Source of the DNA: a virus
Length of the DNA: 23,172 nucleotides
Direction: 5' to 3' (one strand)
IMG/VR virus record: IMGVR_UViG_3300037264_003279
Span: 1 to 23,172 of that record
Shown: one piece after another, positions 1,243-19,915 of the stretch
Layout of the letters: each line of letters begins with the position of its first letter
How positions within the stretch are numbered: the first letter of the stretch is position 1
The notes under the pieces: generated by a model
The model's database searches: none
The model's input: the letters and a program-made list of their open reading frames with translations, nothing else
Told to the model about the DNA's origin: nothing
Translations under genes and position numbers: made by a program

Positions 1243-3729
1243 ATGGACCCAACCGTCAAGAATGGAATCCTCGCTTCTCTCGGCGTCCTGTTTGCGCCCG
1301 GCCAGGTCGTCGAGCTTCGGGTGCTTGGTATCAATGACACGCCCGGCTTTAACGCCAGCGGATGGTTCAACGACATGCAAGCGCTCGCCGACGCGGCCGT
1401 CCGCTACGAATCCAAACTGCCGACCGGCATCTACGTGACGATCAATGCTTTGCACGAAGCCTGTCTTGCCCGAACGCAAAACGCCATCGTCGAACGGCGT
1501 CGGACGTCAACCTCTGAATCAGACATCGTTCGCCGCTCGTGGCTATTCCTCGACTTAGACACCGTTCGACCGACCGACGTTTCAAGTACGGATGCCGAGA
1601 TCCGCTTTGCCGACGAGTCTGCGACGCTGATTGAGTCATTCTTGTCCGCATCGCACGGGTTTCCGGCCGCGGTACACGCCAACAGCGGGAACGGACGCCA
1701 CCTTCTTTATAGGATGGATGAAGTCAACTCGCCGGATTCATCGAAATCCATCAAGCAATTCGTCGAACGGCTATCTAAGATGTTCACGAACGAACGAATC
1801 GGCGTCGATTCCAGAGTTCACGATCCGGCCAGAATCACAAAGCTATACGGAACACTCGCCCGCAAGGGCGCAAACACGCCGGATCGGCCGCACCGCCGGT
1901 CTTTTATGATATCGACGGGCGTCTACAACGACTTCCCGCTATTGAGCATGGACGTCCTGCTCGAAGCAGCCAAGGTGATGAAGGCCAAAACCAAGGCCGT
2001 CAAGACCGACGCCGCAGATAGCGGCGGATCATCCCCGGATCACGCCGTGGACCTCGACGAATGGCTGCGTGAGAACGGAATCGCCGTTGTTCGCTCTGAT
2101 TCCTGGCAAGGCGGAGTCCGGCACATCCTCGAGAAGTGTGTTTTCGACGCGAGCCACACGGGAACAAGCGCCGCCATCGGTCGAACCGCCGGCGGAGCCG
2201 TCTTCTATTCCTGCAAGCACAACTCGTGCGCCGATCGCAAGTGGTCCGACGTTCGCAAGCTCTTCAAGTCGTCCAAAGTTGCCGTCAAAACGTCGGGTCG
2301 GCCGAAGCGGGCCGTTGACGAGGACGACTGTTATGAATCGGCTCGGCAATTCGTGCTTGACGAATACTCCGTTGACGGGTCCGTGACCATCCGCCGTTGG
2401 CGGCAGGAGTTCTACGTTTGGAACGGACTTCGGTACCTGCCCGTTGAAACCGACGCCGTGCGGATTCGGATCATACGCTGGCGGGGTGAACGGAGCGAGA
2501 AGGCCAACACGCGAAGCGTCCATGACATTCTCGCTTGTGTTGAAGCACTTGTCAGCTTACCGTCCGAATTGGAGCCGCCCTTCCATTCGTCGCTGTCGTC
2601 GGAAACGATGTGCGTTTCCGCGAAGCGGCTTTCCGCCCGGCGGCTCTCGCTTCTGAACGGGTCCGTCGATATCGACGCCGCGCTTTCCGGACGTTCGCTG
2701 CGGGACTGTATCGACCCCCTGAGTCCGTCCATCTTCTCGCTGAATAATCTTCCGTTCTCGTTCCCGACGACGGCTGAAGAGGCACTATGCACACAGTGGA
2801 CGGACTTTGTTTCCGAAGTCCTACCGGAACCCGAATGCGCGATGCTTGTCCAAGAGTCCTTTGGATATTGCTTCGACCAGTCGCTGCGCATGGAAGCGTT
2901 TTTCGTACTCCACGGAAAGGGTAACAACGGAAAATCGACGATCATGGACGTGCTCAGTGCCCTGCTTGGCGAAGAAAACGTGTGCTCGCTCTCCATGGAA
3001 TCGTTTCGGGAACGGTACACCTTAATCGAACTGAGTGGAAAGATCGCCAACGTGTGCGGGGATATGTCCGAACTCGATCGAGTCGAGGAAGGTATCCTAC
3101 GGTCGCTTGTGAGCGGCGACGCCATTACCGTGCAGCGCAAGTACAAAAACGCGGTCCGGCTCCGAAATCGCGCACGGTTCTTTTTCTGCACGAACGCGCT
3201 ACCCCGATTTTCGGATACGTCGAAAGGAGTGTGGCGGAGAATGAGGCTCATACCGTTTGACCGCGTAGTCCCAGACGATCAAATCGACATCCACCTTGCG
3301 TCGAAGCTCATTGAGGAACTACCGGGCATCCTGTTGTGGTCCTTGCAAGGACTCAAAAGGCTTCGCGAAACACAGCGGTTCAGCATATCGCTTCGATGCG
3401 AGAAGGCGGCTTATGACTACAGGCTTGCTTGTTTCCCCGTTCTGACGTTTCTTGACGAATGCACAACGAATCAATCGTACTCGGACTCGCCGGCACAGAC
3501 GGCCGCCGAAACGCTTTGGCATGGATATTGTGAGTGGGGTCGCACGAACGGCTTCACAAAGATCAAGCCGCTTCACACGTTTATATCCGATGTGCTCATC
3601 TTTAGGCCAGAGGTCCAAATGTCTACGACGAGCAAGACGCCGCGCAACCAAGCCCAACTGCACGGCATTCGGATTGTGGACTTTCCGCCGTACAGAACGT
3701 CGGTTCCGGAAAGGACGGTGTTTCAATGA
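1243..3729 (+). CDS. Fused archaeo-eukaryotic-type primase and SF3 (D5-like) helicase
   Basis: This 828-residue protein is likely the main replication initiator. The N-terminal half resembles prim-pol (AEP) domains: LFLDLD (101-106) gives the D-x-D metal pair, SGNGRHLLYR (148-157) the second motif with its His, and DPARITKLYGT (194-204) the third. C299, H305, C324 and C329 form a likely zinc-binding cluster of the C-x6-H...C-x4-C type common between primase and helicase parts. The C-terminal half is a D5/P4-type SF3 helicase: Walker A GKGNNGKST (558-566), a Walker B-like strand ending in GDMSE (606-610), and the sensor-like FFFCTNALP (647-655). Length and order match phage and plasmid primase-helicases. 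The ATG lies three bases after the nuclease stop, and the stop overlaps the next gene's ATG. No DNA polymerase is visible, so the phage may use the host's or have one outside the window. Confidence 0.9.
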   Translation: MDPTVKNGILASLGVLFAPGQVVELRVLGINDTPGFNASGWFNDMQALADAAVRYESKLPTGIYVTINALHEACLARTQNAIVERRRTSTSESDIVRRSWLFLDLDTVRPTDVSSTDAEIRFADESATLIESFLSASHGFPAAVHANSGNGRHLLYRMDEVNSPDSSKSIKQFVERLSKMFTNERIGVDSRVHDPARITKLYGTLARKGANTPDRPHRRSFMISTGVYNDFPLLSMDVLLEAAKVMKAKTKAVKTDAADSGGSSPDHAVDLDEWLRENGIAVVRSDSWQGGVRHILEKCVFDASHTGTSAAIGRTAGGAVFYSCKHNSCADRKWSDVRKLFKSSKVAVKTSGRPKRAVDEDDCYESARQFVLDEYSVDGSVTIRRWRQEFYVWNGLRYLPVETDAVRIRIIRWRGERSEKANTRSVHDILACVEALVSLPSELEPPFHSSLSSETMCVSAKRLSARRLSLLNGSVDIDAALSGRSLRDCIDPLSPSIFSLNNLPFSFPTTAEEALCTQWTDFVSEVLPEPECAMLVQESFGYCFDQSLRMEAFFVLHGKGNNGKSTIMDVLSALLGEENVCSLSMESFRERYTLIELSGKIANVCGDMSELDRVEEGILRSLVSGDAITVQRKYKNAVRLRNRARFFFCTNALPRFSDTSKGVWRRMRLIPFDRVVPDDQIDIHLASKLIEELPGILLWSLQGLKRLRETQRFSISLRCEKAAYDYRLACFPVLTFLDECTTNQSYSDSPAQTAAETLWHGYCEWGRTNGFTKIKPLHTFISDVLIFRPEVQMSTTSKTPRNQAQLHGIRIVDFPPYRTSVPERTVFQ

Positions 3730-10458: not shown

Positions 10459-10662
10459 ATGACTCAGATGATCGTCGGCATCGACAGCGAAAACTCGCTC
10501 GTGATGCACCTCGACTGGTATTGCAACAAAAACAACACGACAAAGGTCACGGCCACCGTGGACGAAAACGGCGATCTCACCATCTTAGTTGACGGCGAAC
10601 TCCTTACCTGTCGAAGTGAGAACCAGTGCCGCGACGCGCCAGACCGCGGCTTGGCGGAGTAA
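10459..10662 (+). CDS. Small hypothetical protein, 67 residues
   Basis: I chose ATG 10459 because ACGGAGAC lies about six bases upstream. A GTG at 10432 would overlap the previous stop but has no such site. The sequence MTQMIVGIDSENSLVMHLDW followed by TKVTATVDENGDLTILVDGE reads as a compact beta-sheet domain. Two Cys are present, with no clear metal site. It lies immediately before the portal gene, with the portal ribosome-binding site inside its 3' end. Confidence 0.6.
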   Translation: MTQMIVGIDSENSLVMHLDWYCNKNNTTKVTATVDENGDLTILVDGELLTCRSENQCRDAPDRGLAE

Positions 10663-10663
10663 G

Positions 10664-12232
10664 ATGATAAATCCTAAAAATTCGCGGCCCCCTGCGGTGG
10701 CTGGCGGAGCACCGGCGGGCGTCCGTGGACTCGCCGTTCGGTTCGGAAATTGGCTTCGGTCATTCGGTCAGGCCACCGGCGACTCGACAATCAAGCTTTC
10801 TCAATTAAACCGATGGAGTTCCATCGGTGCAGATGAGCAGAGTTGCGGCACTCGAATCAGCCCGATCGATTCGTACAGGCAATCGACGTGGGTTTACGGG
10901 GCGGTCAACATGATCGCGCACGCGGTCGCCGACACGCCGTTCCGAGTTTACGACAGGTCCGACAGGCCGATCCCCGAAAGCCCGATGCAAAAGCTGATCG
11001 ACCGGCCGTCGAGTTATACGGCTCAGGACACGTCCACGAAGCTTCGCTCGGCCTACTTCATCGAACTCTTGCTAGGCGGGTCCGTGCTCCGCGCGTTCAC
11101 GGAAATGGCCGGGGAAGTGCCTATGGCCATGTACATCTACCCGCGATGGATGTTTACGGCTCAGGACCGGATGGACGAAAACGGACTGAGGGTTCCCTTG
11201 AAGTGGTCGCTTAACCGCCGGTCCGCTCGGTCGTTTATCGCAAACGACGAAATCTATCATGATGCGCTGTACAACCCGTTCCACGAGTACGAGGGAATGG
11301 CTCCGCTGGAGGCTGCGCTCCTAATGGTGGCGAACGACGTGGGATGCAGCCTCTTCACGAACCGATACTTCTCGAACGACGCGAGCAGCGGCTTGATCTT
11401 AAGCAGCGACGATCCCAACTTCGACAACAAGGCTGCGCTCGAAGCCCAGAAGATGTGGGACGAACATCATGCGGGCGCTTCCAAGGCGTTCGGAACGAAA
11501 TTCGTCGGGCACGGCCTCAAGCCCCACTCCGTAGGAAAACCGTTCGACGCGAACGCTCAGTCGATTGTCAAGTCGCTCACCAAAGAAGAGATCGTGTCCG
11601 GCATCTTCCGAATCCCGCTTGAGATTTTCGGAGCGTCGAATCAAACGGGCGGCGGAGTCGTTATCGGCGCGAACACCAAAGAACCCGCCTACGAAGGGTT
11701 TCTTGTCAACGTCGTCGTTCCGTGGGCGAAGTTCTACGACGACGAATGGAACAATGACGTGGCGTGGCGGTTTGGATCCGATCAGATCGGCAAGCATGAC
11801 TTCTCCGAAAACCCGACGCTGGAGAATCGGCGTCTGGAACGCGCCAAGACGGCGGCAACTCTTATGGACCGCGGAGTCCCGCTCAACGAGGTCATCCGCT
11901 GGCTGCACCTTAACATAGCGCCGCAGGCACACGGTGACGAGTGGTTCGCTCCCAACTGGCTGATCCCGGCGTCCGTAATCCAGAAGCACGCCGACGCGGT
12001 TTACACGCAAGTTCAGCGAGACTATCAAAAAGAGGCGGTTGGGTCCTACGTCGAGTCGATTGTCCGCGAGTCAGACCGCGTAGCGGTACGCATCATTGCC
12101 GCGCAGGATGAACGATGTAAACTAAACGGACGATCGCAGTCGAACGCTTCGCGAATTGCGGAGTTAATGGACGACAAACATGACAACCCCGAACATATGG
12201 CACAGGGCGGAAACGGTCGAACCGCTCATTAG
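10664..12232 (+). CDS. Portal protein, HK97-type
   Basis: From ATG 10664 (GGCGGAG seven bases upstream) the product has 522 residues, the usual size for the HK97/SPP1-like portal family. Typical segments are YRQSTWVYGAVNMIAHAVAD near the start (the 'V-x-A-C-I-x-x-I-A-x-x-V-A' helix), PFRVYDR, LLGGSVLRAF (the 'L-L-x-G-N-A-Y' region), the IYHDALYNPFHEYEGMAPLE loop (compare 'G-x-S-P-L'), EEIVSGIFRIPLEIFG (compare 'I-A-x-x-F-x-V-P-P-x-L-L-G') and the wing/stem that follows. Portals form the dodecameric ring through which the terminase pumps DNA and on which the adaptor assembles. The 3' end overlaps the protease gene by 53 bases, the close spacing usual for portal and protease. Confidence 0.92.
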   Translation: MINPKNSRPPAVAGGAPAGVRGLAVRFGNWLRSFGQATGDSTIKLSQLNRWSSIGADEQSCGTRISPIDSYRQSTWVYGAVNMIAHAVADTPFRVYDRSDRPIPESPMQKLIDRPSSYTAQDTSTKLRSAYFIELLLGGSVLRAFTEMAGEVPMAMYIYPRWMFTAQDRMDENGLRVPLKWSLNRRSARSFIANDEIYHDALYNPFHEYEGMAPLEAALLMVANDVGCSLFTNRYFSNDASSGLILSSDDPNFDNKAALEAQKMWDEHHAGASKAFGTKFVGHGLKPHSVGKPFDANAQSIVKSLTKEEIVSGIFRIPLEIFGASNQTGGGVVIGANTKEPAYEGFLVNVVVPWAKFYDDEWNNDVAWRFGSDQIGKHDFSENPTLENRRLERAKTAATLMDRGVPLNEVIRWLHLNIAPQAHGDEWFAPNWLIPASVIQKHADAVYTQVQRDYQKEAVGSYVESIVRESDRVAVRIIAAQDERCKLNGRSQSNASRIAELMDDKHDNPEHMAQGGNGRTAH

Positions 12233-13314: not shown

Positions 13315-14820
13315 ATGCCAACTGCAACACTTGATGAACGGGAGTTGGCCGATCTGACGGAATCAATCAAGTCAGCGACGGCCGAACTCAACGACGCTCG
13401 GAAAAAGATCGAAGAGTCCAACAAGACCGCATCGGCTCTTGTGCCGCGGATGAAGGAACTCGACGCACTCAAGGACCAAGGCAAAGAAGTCAGCCGGGAA
13501 CTTGAAACGACTCGCGAAAAGCTGAATAAGCTTGCGATCGACATGGAGGGCTTGTCCGTCAAGCACACCAAGCTTGTCGAGACCACGCGAGAGCAGATGA
13601 AGAGCATCGGCTCGAAAACCGACGAATCCGAGGACGGGTACGTTTACAAGGGTGACGGGTCCAAGGGTTCGCTCTTCAAATCGAAGAGGCAGGCTCAAGA
13701 AATCGGCGTGTTCATTTTGGCAACTGCGTCCAACGGATCGAACCAAGGCAACCGGGACAGGGCGCGAAGATGGCTGAGAGAGAACGGCCGATCGCTGCGG
13801 TACCTGCCCGATATTCCTCAGTCCATGATTTCGGCGTTCGGTGACGAATGGACGAAACAGGTCACGGAGTCGATGCGACAGTCGAACTTCCCGTACGCCG
13901 CTCAAGACCTCACGACCGTCGCCCCGCCGGGTGCCGTACTCGTTTGGCCGGAATTCGTTCAAACCCTCATTCGGAACGTCGAAGAGCACGGCAGATTTCG
14001 GCAAAATGCGACCGTCTGGCCAATGCAAAGTGGAATCACGTACCTCCCCCGATGGAAGGCCGGATTCCCGTATCCTGAGTGGGAAGGTGAAGGCGACACC
14101 ATCGCCACGCAAGACCCGGACGTCGACATGCTGCAAATGATTGCAAAGAAAATGGCAATCCTGACGCAGCATTCTAACGAACTGTCGATGGACAACGTGA
14201 TTTCCGTCGCCGATATCGTCATGTTTGGAATCGCACTGGCTTTCGCGTCCGAGGAAGATCGGATCGGGTTCAACGGGACCGGGGCCGGCGGCAAAGGCCC
14301 TACGGGATACGCAGGGTTTGTCGGCGTGCTCGGTTCGGCGCGGAACGGCGACACCGACGCTACGCCGTTTGCCGTGACGGGTGCCATTCCGAATGACCTT
14401 ACGACCGAGATCACCGAAGCCAAGCTTCGAGCTATGACGGGCCTCCTTCACTCGTGGGCCGTTCCGAACGCCAAGTTCTACACACACAGGTCCGTCCACG
14501 CGGACCTCGACGGGATCAGCAACGCCAATGGACCGGTTGTTAAGTATCAGGACGGTAAGACGGCGACGATCATGGGCGCACCAATCGTCGATGTCGATCA
14601 AATGCCGATTTCGCCGGGCGCTGCCTCGACTGCAGTGTTGGCTTATGGCGATCTTCGTAAGTCTTGGTATCTCGGAGACCGTAGAGCCCCGGAGATCGTG
14701 ACCTCCGAGCACTTCTTGTTCAACAAGGACTTGCTCGCAATTCGGGCAACGCAACGGATCGGAATCCGGGCCGTGCAGGGCAACGGAATGGTCGTATACG
14801 TGACTGGATTGGCGTCGTAA
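13315..14820 (+). CDS. Major capsid protein, HK97 fold
   Basis: This 501-residue protein has an AAAGGA site upstream of ATG 13315. Residues 1 to about 100 form a charged helical coiled coil (ELNDARKKIEESN, SRELETTREKLNKL), the delta domain that acts as internal scaffold and is normally removed by the protease encoded just before. From about 165 the HK97 capsid fold can be followed: PPGAVLVWPEFVQTLIRNVE, the strand with WPMQSGITYLPRW, KKMAILTQHSNELSMD (the E-loop/spine region), the FNGTGAGGKGPTGYAG loop, KFYTHRSVHADL and the C-terminal DLLAIRATQRIGIRAVQG that closes the P domain. A very stable hairpin follows the gene. Cleavage near residues 100-160 is inferred. Confidence 0.93.
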   Translation: MPTATLDERELADLTESIKSATAELNDARKKIEESNKTASALVPRMKELDALKDQGKEVSRELETTREKLNKLAIDMEGLSVKHTKLVETTREQMKSIGSKTDESEDGYVYKGDGSKGSLFKSKRQAQEIGVFILATASNGSNQGNRDRARRWLRENGRSLRYLPDIPQSMISAFGDEWTKQVTESMRQSNFPYAAQDLTTVAPPGAVLVWPEFVQTLIRNVEEHGRFRQNATVWPMQSGITYLPRWKAGFPYPEWEGEGDTIATQDPDVDMLQMIAKKMAILTQHSNELSMDNVISVADIVMFGIALAFASEEDRIGFNGTGAGGKGPTGYAGFVGVLGSARNGDTDATPFAVTGAIPNDLTTEITEAKLRAMTGLLHSWAVPNAKFYTHRSVHADLDGISNANGPVVKYQDGKTATIMGAPIVDVDQMPISPGAASTAVLAYGDLRKSWYLGDRRAPEIVTSEHFLFNKDLLAIRATQRIGIRAVQGNGMVVYVTGLAS

Positions 14821-15179: not shown

Positions 15180-15608
15180 ATGTACCTACCAACCCTTAGC
15201 GGACTCAAGACGTTCGACGACGCCGCGTTCGCCGCGAACGAAATGTCCTTTGCGTCGGCAGCGCCGGGGACCTACGTCTCTACCGGACTCGACGTGAGCG
15301 AGTTCGCTGAGTACTTTGCGTACTTCGCCATCGATAACGCCGGGGCCGGTTCGTGCTCTTGCAAGATTGCTGAATCGAACGACAACGTGTCGTTCGCTCA
15401 AATTCCAGACGCGATAATCAACATATCGACCGGATTGCTCGAAAGGGTTGGAATCTACGTAAACAGAAGAAGCCCGGATCGCAAGAAGTTCTTTCGGTTA
15501 GAGGTCGTTGTCTCTACGGCCAATGCACGGATTTTTGCGTTCAGTATGAGAATGTCTCCAATGGACGGTAAGATCGCGGTACCCGGCGGAGGCATTCTGA
15601 TTCCGTAA
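15180..15608 (+). CDS. Virion-type beta protein, tandem paralogue 1 of 3
   Basis: The 142-residue product is the first of three neighbouring diverged copies. Shared landmarks are an early start MYLPTLSGLKT, a 'D-V-x-x-x-A-E' strand (DVSEFAEYFAYFAI), the 'x-E-S-N' turn (KIAESNDN), the basic PDRKKFFRLEVVV and the closing FSMRMSPMDG. The 'Q/E-E-S-(N/D)-D-N...RKR-(Y/F)-(L/V)-R' plan is met in short proteins that follow the capsid gene in many siphophages. They are probably capsid decoration or other virion components, though function is not settled. It is spaced 18 bases from the next copy. Confidence 0.75.
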   Translation: MYLPTLSGLKTFDDAAFAANEMSFASAAPGTYVSTGLDVSEFAEYFAYFAIDNAGAGSCSCKIAESNDNVSFAQIPDAIINISTGLLERVGIYVNRRSPDRKKFFRLEVVVSTANARIFAFSMRMSPMDGKIAVPGGGILIP

Positions 15609-15626
15609 TCTATCAAGGAATACACA

Positions 15627-16052
15627 GTGTACCTGCCAATCGTTTACGGACTCAGAACGTGGGACAACGCGCTTGCAGCCGAGTTTGACTACGTTGGCCT
15701 CGTCGATACGTCGTACTTTTCAGAGCCGATCGACGTAAAAGATCACGCCGAATGCTTCTTTTTTATATCCACGGACAGCGCAGGCGGCGGGGCCGTGGAA
15801 CTGGCCATACAGGAATCGAACGCTCTTCTGTCCGGATTCACGGACGTACCGGGAACAAACGTAACTGTTCCGGCAAGCGGACTTGTTCGGCGACTATTCC
15901 ACGTCCTTACAAGGAATCCGGAAAGGAAAAGGTACCTGAGAGCGAAGGCCACGCCACGGACGGTCGGAAGCAACATCCTCGGATTCAGTCTGAGAATGTC
16001 ACCGTTGAATGGAGTCTTATCGGGTCAAACGGGTATGAAAATCGTTATCTGA
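15627..16052 (+). CDS. Virion-type beta protein, tandem paralogue 2 of 3
   Basis: This 141-residue product starts with GTG 15627, preceded by AAGGAA. It aligns along its whole length with the copy before it: MYLPIVYGLRTWDNA at the start, DVKDHAECFFFISTDSAGGG, ELAIQESN, PERKRYLRAKA and LGFSLRMSPLNG at the end. The hydrophobic core is kept while surface residues differ widely, so the duplication is old or the copies came from different phages. No membrane segment or signal peptide is present. Role as for the family: virion surface or assembly, inferred from position. Confidence 0.75.
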   Translation: MYLPIVYGLRTWDNALAAEFDYVGLVDTSYFSEPIDVKDHAECFFFISTDSAGGGAVELAIQESNALLSGFTDVPGTNVTVPASGLVRRLFHVLTRNPERKRYLRAKATPRTVGSNILGFSLRMSPLNGVLSGQTGMKIVI

Positions 16053-16081: not shown

Positions 16082-16519
16082 ATGACAAACCTCAGAACGA
16101 TCGACGGAATGCGGACCGCCGGAGACGGAGACCGGACGCACGACTTGCCGCATCTTTCCAGAGCGGCCGCTACGTACAACTCCACGGGGGTCGATACGAC
16201 CAACTACCGTGAAGTTGTGTTCCTGATTTCAACGGCCGCACTTGCCGCCACGAGTACGCTGGCCGTCAAATTGCAGGAATCCGAGACAGTCGGCGGAACA
16301 TACACGGACATTACGGGGGCCGCGAAGAGCTACGTCGATGCGGACGACGACAAGCTCGACGCAATCTACGTGAACACGGAAAACGTGGATCGAAAGAAGT
16401 TCGTCAGGGCCAACTGCGTTGTTGCCGTTGCAGCTGCCGTGTTCGGGATAATTTCGATGCGGCTCAACCCGACGTCGGGAATCATCACGGCTGGCGCAAA
16501 CGTCGTCGCCGTGAACTGA
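16082..16519 (+). CDS. Virion-type beta protein, tandem paralogue 3 of 3
   Basis: I chose ATG 16082 (145 residues); the same frame is open further upstream to 15752 but that part is out of phase with the preceding real gene. It begins MTNLRTIDGMRTAGD, and the middle DTTNYREVVFLISTAALAAT, VKLQESETVGGTYTDITGA and the late VDRKKFVRANCVV and ISMRLNPTSG match the two copies upstream. This copy is closest to the common phage form of the family ('L-Q-E-S...Y-T-D-I-T'). It is followed by a strong hairpin and a short octamer repeat. Confidence 0.8.
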   Translation: MTNLRTIDGMRTAGDGDRTHDLPHLSRAAATYNSTGVDTTNYREVVFLISTAALAATSTLAVKLQESETVGGTYTDITGAAKSYVDADDDKLDAIYVNTENVDRKKFVRANCVVAVAAAVFGIISMRLNPTSGIITAGANVVAVN

Positions 16520-17329: not shown

Positions 17330-18559
17330 GTGAGCACGCTTCTCGACTTCCCGTTCGCAACGCTCAGCCAACTCAAAACGCGGCTTGGCGTCAAAACAAC
17401 GGACTTTGATTCCGCACTCTCGGACGCCCTTAGTTTCTCCGCCGCCGCCATCGAGGCCGCCGCTGGCCGGCGTCTGCGACGCGCCCACGCCGTCTCCGAG
17501 GTCTTTACGGGCGGCAGCCGCATCATCCGAGTCGCTAATTCACCCATCGTTCAAATTCACTGGATTCGCGAGTCGGTCGACAGGGACTTCGTGACCGCAA
17601 CCGAGTACGAAGAACTGGTCGAGGGGACCGACTACGTACTCGAAAGCAGCATCGACGGCGAGCCGCCCGGCGAAAGCGGAATCATTCGCCGGGTCAACGG
17701 ATGCTGGCTGGGAAGCAAGTCCGAGCCGTCGCAGATCAAGGTTCAGTACACGGGCGGGTACAAGACGGACGATGAAGTCGCCATTGAGAACAAGACGATC
17801 GTTCTGAGCAGCGATCCTCCGGCATTAGACTTTACAGTCACGAAAGATGTAACCATACCATCAAGTCCGCTATACGGAATATCGAACGAGTCAAGTATTA
17901 CACTGTTGCTTGACAAAGACCCGACCTTTAAGTCGACAAATCCGATTTTCACAATTCAGACTTCTGGACTCATTATACCAACGTGGGGAGTTACTGAATT
18001 CAGCATGAATTTGTCGGCAAAAGTAAACAGTGTTCCCGTAAGCCTGTCGGCCTACGTGCTGAGCAAAAATGGCCTGACGAATGACATCGCCGGACTATTT
18101 GAAGGAATCTCATCCGGGGTTCAGATCGGAAGCACTGCGGTAATCAGCAGTACGACTTACGTCCCGTTCAATCTTGTCATGGGAAGCCAAACCGTCAGAA
18201 CCGCAATAGAAAACGGGGTCAAGGAGGGTCATATAACAGTTGGGATTTTCAGTCCATCGCCGTCTACATCAAGTTCAACTTTGATGATATCCATGAACGA
18301 AACCAACCCCGCTCTCCGCCCCACCATCACGATCAAGCACCGGCCCGGCGTTGCGGACCCGTTCGACGTGCCCGGCGATCTTCAAGACGCGAACCTGATC
18401 CAAGCCGCCCACGATCACTACACGCGAGCCAATCCGGGTATCATCTTCGAGGGCCAGCGCGGCGTCAGCATCGCGTCGGGATCGACCATTCGGAAAGGGG
18501 AGGCATCGCTGCTGCCGCTTGTCGCCATGATCGCGAGAAGATACCGTAGGAAGTACTAA
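17330..18559 (+). CDS. Head-tail adaptor (connector) with a large inserted beta domain
   Basis: This 409-residue protein starts with GTG 17330. Residues 1 to about 150 match gp6/HK97-type adaptors: helical LSQLKTRLGV, SDALSFSAAAIEAAAGRRLR, then the strand pattern TGGSRIIRVANSPIVQIHWI and the IKVQYTGGYKT strand. Residues 344 to 409 carry the family's last helices, PFDVPGDLQDANLIQAAHDH and the ending of adaptor proteins. Between them lie about 190 extra residues (about 152-342) of pure beta pattern, closing with NPALRPTITIKH, the kind of ending seen in secreted or surface beta-sandwich (carbohydrate-binding or DNRLRE-like) domains. Hand-counted GC there is about 42-50%, against 60-65% on both sides. 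Usual adaptors are 100-210 residues. I read it as an adaptor into which a surface domain was inserted. Confidence 0.8.
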   Translation: MSTLLDFPFATLSQLKTRLGVKTTDFDSALSDALSFSAAAIEAAAGRRLRRAHAVSEVFTGGSRIIRVANSPIVQIHWIRESVDRDFVTATEYEELVEGTDYVLESSIDGEPPGESGIIRRVNGCWLGSKSEPSQIKVQYTGGYKTDDEVAIENKTIVLSSDPPALDFTVTKDVTIPSSPLYGISNESSITLLLDKDPTFKSTNPIFTIQTSGLIIPTWGVTEFSMNLSAKVNSVPVSLSAYVLSKNGLTNDIAGLFEGISSGVQIGSTAVISSTTYVPFNLVMGSQTVRTAIENGVKEGHITVGIFSPSPSTSSSTLMISMNETNPALRPTITIKHRPGVADPFDVPGDLQDANLIQAAHDHYTRANPGIIFEGQRGVSIASGSTIRKGEASLLPLVAMIARRYRRKY

Positions 18560-19842: not shown

Positions 19843-19915
19843 TGCGGGGTAGGGCAGTCGGCAGCCCGTGTGGCTCATAACCACAAGGTCGTTGGTTCAA
19901 ATCCAACCCCCGCGC
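19843..19915 (+). tRNA. tRNA with CAU anticodon (tRNA-Met, possibly Ile2)
   Basis: A full cloverleaf can be built. The acceptor TGCGGGG pairs with CCCCGCG (first pair T-G). The D stem is GGGC/GCCC, and the anticodon stem is TGTGG/CCACA with loop CTCATAA, giving CAT at 19876-19878. The variable loop is AGGTC and the T arm is GTTGG-TTCAAAT-CCAAC. No CCA is encoded. The anticodon stem lacks the three G-C pairs of initiator tRNA, so it is elongator Met or, if the C is changed to lysidine, an isoleucine tRNA for AUA. Phage tRNAs commonly supply a codon or replace a host tRNA cut by defence nucleases. Its place in the tail gene block is unusual. Confidence 0.88.

Follow-up and report, generated by a model that had tools for sequence, protein, structure and literature searches.

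A compositionally foreign segment inside a phage head-tail adaptor, and unrelated insertions at the loops of its relatives

Head-tail adaptors are commonly regarded as conserved plumbing. The window analyzed here, i.e., the whole 23,172-nucleotide stretch of the IMG/VR virus record IMGVR_UViG_3300037264_003279, raises the question of how one of them came to hold a long additional segment in its middle and what such a segment might do at the neck of the virion. The reading frame concerned is open from 17330 to 18556, with the stop codon following, and its 409 residues constitute, as the initial annotation had proposed, a head-tail adaptor of the PHROG 442/RcGTA Rcc01688 kind (gp6-gp15 superfamily). 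The PHROG 442 profile ("head-tail adaptor") matches the whole protein with E=3e-13, the best stretch being residues 6-149, and the N-terminal part alone with E=1.7e-10; the adaptor profile also matches RcGTA Rcc01688 (E=9e-10), and Pfam Phage_connect_1 comes slightly short of its cut-off (E=0.0016). In a fold search with the AlphaFold2 model the top five PDB matches, with E from 1e-4 to 1e-2, were all neck proteins, namely those of RcGTA, DT57C, T5, Milano and 812, matched via the core of the protein. The matches from the virus library were gp6-domain proteins, mostly of 180-220 residues and some of 285-446. Upstream lie TerL, the portal, a protease-like gene and the major capsid protein (MCP) in the expected order (Table 1); the genes directly after the adaptor received no name from Pfam or PHROGs.

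Elsewhere in the window, three tandem paralogues stand just after the capsid gene (15180-15608, 15627-16052 and 16082-16519), the first resembling the second with E=3e-24 and the third with E=1e-14. They have homologues in many related loci (L097, L169, L176, L218, L231 and others) and look like small head-decoration-type proteins that have expanded in this phage. A tRNA-Met (CAT) gene occupies 19843-19915, amid the structural gene block, and near the start of the window an ERCC4-type nuclease gene (370-1239) is followed by one for a DUF5906/VapE-like helicase-primase (1243-3729).

Table 1. Coordinates of the adaptor gene, its parts and the genes of its expected partners in the window
Feature	Coordinates	Strand	Basis
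Head-tail adaptor gene with inserted domain	17330..18559	+	409 aa, GTG start; PHROG 442, fold match
Adaptor core, N-terminal: helices 1-2 and attachment-domain strands, to YTGGYKTDD	17330..17780	+	Alignment, pLDDT, GC
Inserted accessory domain (putative), ~187 aa, orphan	17781..18340	+	Absent in insertless relatives; GC; pLDDT <50
Adaptor core, C-terminal: helix after VPGDL, adaptor-loop region, C-terminal helix	18341..18556	+	Alignment, pLDDT
HK97-type major capsid protein, upstream of adaptor	13315..14820	+	Pfam Phage_capsid E=1.9e-31
Portal protein, expected adaptor partner	10589..12232	+	Pfam Phage_portal E=1.8e-26

The additional segment comes after the final attachment-domain strand (TGGY) and before the core helix starting at VPGDL, and its extent, ~187 residues (~151-337), is deduced from insertless relatives that pass from YxGGY straight into VPxDL. 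Single-protein scans of IMG/VR with the adaptor, MCP, portal, TerL and the insert yielded no close relative, and tblastn against 50,697 phage records yielded none of the adaptor or the MCP; distant relatives were reached via terminase and capsid alignments. Core residues 1-151 and ~338-409 align end to end with insertless relatives of ~200 residues, including prophages of Planctomycetota. The first of these, a 207-residue adaptor from a Phycisphaerales genome (L089), matches the window protein at either end and passes from VVYRGGF to MPADLQ through just a short linker. Others from Phycisphaerae/Planctomycetota genomes (L169, L170, L174, L285 and L286) likewise lack the insert, and in all these planctomycetotal adaptors the strand and helix thus joined are the two that flank the insert in the window. 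In an alignment of 26 sequences the other 25 rows are nearly empty over window residues ~151 to ~337, the homologous linker being a few to ~20 residues long. Thus, the ~190 extra residues that the initial annotation had placed between the YTGGYKTDD strand and the next helix are indeed absent in the aligned related adaptors; the limits then given, 17786-18355, captured the insertion but overshot its 3' end by 15 bases (~17781-18340 here).

Structure prediction separates the same parts. AlphaFold2 run with the 26-row alignment gives a pLDDT of mostly 76-96 for residues 5-151 and 340-373 (mostly 76-95 in the N-terminal core and, within the C-terminal core, 80-96 at 341-370 and 85-87 at 391-409), as against values <50 throughout 152-287 and in most residues from there to 339. 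As modeled, the inserted segment is outside the normal adaptor fold, and no adaptor of the same length carrying this region at uniform GC was encountered among the relatives.

The inserted segment is also compositionally foreign. The initial impression that its DNA is AT-richer than the flanks holds when computed: GC is 47.2% in the insert versus 61.2% in the N-terminal and 63.4% in the C-terminal core, and GC3 is 54% versus 75% and 76%, respectively, with the break coinciding with the insert boundaries. No 555-base stretch in the 23-kb window is AT-richer than the one beginning at 17759, and an unsupervised fit of two change-points on the gene, blind to the protein alignment, set the limits at 17759-18307 with a 2dLL of 33.9, the best of 200 codon shuffles reaching 16.4. 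Among the insert-bearing adaptors compared, only that of the window has a strong GC contrast between insert and flanks, and its insert therefore looks the youngest or most foreign of them.

By its sequence the insert reads like a beta domain, with hydrophobic/polar alternation and few charged residues; it is rich in Ser/Thr (27%), charge-poor and devoid of Cys. The beta-sandwich that had been proposed for it is not confirmed, as a single-sequence AlphaFold model consists mainly of strands but at a pLDDT of ~31, both models score most of the insert under 50, and searches for a matching family or PDB sequence found none. The single-sequence model was left out of the fold comparison, and the fold searches with the second, alignment-based model inform on the core only. 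Nothing passed any cut-off in Pfam, PHROGs, NCBIfam, PDB sequences or phage records: Pfam, including the H-type lectin PF09458, gave no match at E<=10, nor did tblastn against the phage records, peptide patterns found no match in IMG/VR, and nothing rose above chance in 397 genomes from the same class as L089.

Individual candidates fared no better. The best PDB sequence, a phage cement protein, is not significant (E=0.75); cobalamin enzymes in NCBIfam (E=0.005 over 40 residues) are far below cut-off and were dismissed; and a 47-residue match of the insert start to a cellular protein of a planctomycete genome (L288; E=0.005) is at chance level in the 397 genomes. In that genome the ORF 1204-2820, on the minus strand, has a stretch, AKSVAISTDPVALDFYVGKHILFPAGGVYG, resembling the initial 30 insert residues, again with a chance-level score. 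The C-terminus of the insert, NPALRPTITIKH, is by eye similar to the RPxLxI end of DNRLRE/CBM96-type domains (NF033679), but membership in that family was not supported, with an hhalign score of 15.7 versus a shuffled top of 18.1 and -0.3 bits in HMMER. The Ig-like domains of phages (Big_2, I-set, fn3) gave no Pfam match either.

The adaptor family as a whole offers a wider view. A profile search of 252 loci, a sample gathered by capsid (MCP) similarity and hence not random, recovered ~64 adaptors below E=1e-3, of which 53 are near-complete. Large inserts (>=78 residues) occur in 20 of these 53, at three loops: two adaptors have inserts of 111-116 aa before VTSV, eleven have inserts of 78-80 aa before SDY, and seven have them at the loop used in the window (TGGY/VPxDL). 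All-against-all comparison distinguishes six mutually unrelated families of inserts; MAFFT can align residues from inserts that are unrelated, and such placement was not taken as homology. Four of the six are at the window's loop, namely the window's own, that of L122, that shared by L240, L248, L210 and L220, and that of L214. The insert of L122, from Opitutae, is a tandem repeat whose halves match each other with E=1e-19, and Pfam H_lectin matches it above the cut-off (E=1e-6). The ~80-aa insert of the L240 group has matches among baseplate/tail-fibre PHROGs and among the tail fibres of cultured phages, and that of L202, at a different loop from the window's, matches a head-closure PHROG. 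In a tree of the adaptor cores the window branches with the insertless L286, L122 falls among the insertless L014, L060 and L101, and the L240 group lies elsewhere, a pattern that suggests several independent gains, their number being a rough count as the tree is read without branch supports.

Related adaptors are also extended in other ways. A ~115-residue N-terminal domain (MAELxAKTS..) is fused to those of L223, L215, L219, L246, L245, L218 and L241, and one from a planctomycete genome (L287:1210-1695) has an N-terminal domain of ~95 residues unrelated to that of the L223 group. At L233:3418-4686 the adaptor and the downstream head-completion protein share one open frame (Pfam Phage_HCP E=2.7e-9), and the adaptor at L203:7555-8376 has ~80 extra residues near the N-terminal helices, possibly a further insertion position.

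The reading that we moderately favor is that a normal adaptor has acquired an accessory domain and presents it in some twelve copies on the neck, more probably than not for weak binding to the host surface. A foreign domain of ~187 residues would have entered an adaptor of the normal dodecameric type, and recently so, as its base composition appears still unameliorated. The point of entry would be a short linker that borders the attachment domain and leads into the tube-domain helix that follows, and because the insert exits and re-enters via this linker, it could be carried with the ring unchanged; the core retains every element for binding the portal, capsid and stopper, and should still assemble with them. 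Going by the expected copy number and outward exposure, some 12 adaptor copies would each bear one extra domain outside the neck, and the task of these domains may be an accessory, low-affinity, multivalent contact with the host surface. It is the recurrence of lectin-like and tail-fibre-like domains at the same loop that argues for accessory surface binding; as the window insert itself has no detectable relative or confident fold, the role is assigned to it by analogy. The initial suggestion of a binding domain is accordingly plausible in light of the L122 lectin and the L240 tail-fibre domain, its carbohydrate-binding part being unproven.

A tentative but serious alternative is that the insert acts as a structural brace, clamping the adaptor to the capsid or to a neighboring adaptor or stopper and thus stabilizing the neck against DNA pressure, with no part in host binding. 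The attachment domain, to which the insert is directly connected, is the part that touches the capsid in RcGTA (PMC7296036); in phage 812 the adaptor beta-sandwich is likewise in contact with the capsid, and the neck seems to be strengthened by decoration proteins (PMC12886913); and the authors who described roseophage R4C favor local stability for the Ig-like domain of its adaptor, considering adsorption unlikely so near the head (PMC10276861). It is this closeness to the capsid, along with the opinion of the R4C authors, that speaks for stabilization. However, the nearest relatives manage without the insert, and the presence of unrelated domains at the same loop, one of them a lectin, is easier to reconcile with exchangeable surface modules than with a brace fitted to its site. 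When the two are weighed, surface binding is judged the likelier, with stabilization keeping an appreciable share.

An improbable third reading has the segment as a neutral or selfish passenger, a relic of a mobile insertion or an accident of recombination that lies disordered and functionless in a permissive loop. An orphan sequence of biased composition (the Ser/Thr content given above) and low predicted confidence is what such a passenger might look like, and the loop does accept many different inserts. Yet the 187 codons are still open and in frame, the alternation of hydrophobic and polar residues is beta-like and the single-sequence model is mostly strands, though at the low pLDDT noted, and no intein or other mobile-element family matches: Pfam and NCBIfam gave no intein, and the insert lacks both Cys and a His-Asn end. 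That two contigs or genes were joined in silico is very unlikely, for although the insert is known as a single copy from one 23 kb virus record, the frame is kept at either end, where the sequence returns to one and the same adaptor family at homologous positions, and natural inserts occur at this loop in relatives.

More broadly, and doubtfully as yet, the loops of adaptors, chiefly the linker between the attachment and tube domains, might be a general docking site for exchanged surface-binding domains, with a lectin-like twelve-fold ring at the neck taking part in adsorption and the window insert representing a new domain family at that site. At the neck, then, phages may carry and exchange accessory modules, some of which perhaps bind the host. 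If adaptor loops are recurrent landing sites, models of host range and adsorption built on tail tips and capsid decorations alone miss a component; variation in adaptor length in viral metagenomes would be an easy marker of such modules, and the dispute over the role of beta domains at the neck, host binding or mere stabilization of the particle, would become testable.

In the open-licence literature we found no report of a domain inserted at the TGGY/VPxDL linker, of an adaptor containing a lectin or of unrelated inserts recurring in adaptors. Adaptors with extra beta domains are already known, N-terminal in R4C (PMC10276861) and on the outer surface in phage 812 (PMC12886913); in view of these and of the 20 of 53 adaptors with inserts here, the initial description of the neck as an unusual place for such a domain was too strong. 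The closest structural reference is RcGTA Rcc01688 (PDB 6TBA/6TOA; PMC7296036), which together with the PHROG 442 adaptors shares with the window protein its core sequence, fold and domain order, from helices through attachment strands and further helices to the C-terminal part. It has 197 residues, with a linker of 3-4 residues (GFGASWSALP) where the window has ~187 extra, and by alignment this linker appears to connect its attachment domain to its tube domain. The R4C adaptor parallels that of the window in having an additional domain, thought to have been acquired by exchange among phages (PMC10276861); its domain is N-terminal with an Ig-like beta fold, whereas that of the window is an internal insertion without a confident fold. 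The adaptor of Staphylococcus phage 812 (PDB 8Q01) likewise bears an outer beta-sandwich on the neck surface, and its fold weakly matches the window core (E=0.013). The adaptor of the Opitutae prophage L122, of the same family, has an insert of comparable size (176 residues) with a PF09458 lectin domain at the same loop; the sequence of this insert is unrelated to the window insert, and its GC, unlike that of the window insert, is not lowered. Beyond adaptors, glycan-binding domains on virion proteins away from the tip, namely the MCP and tail tube, have been demonstrated experimentally in phage Douge (PMC13033339).
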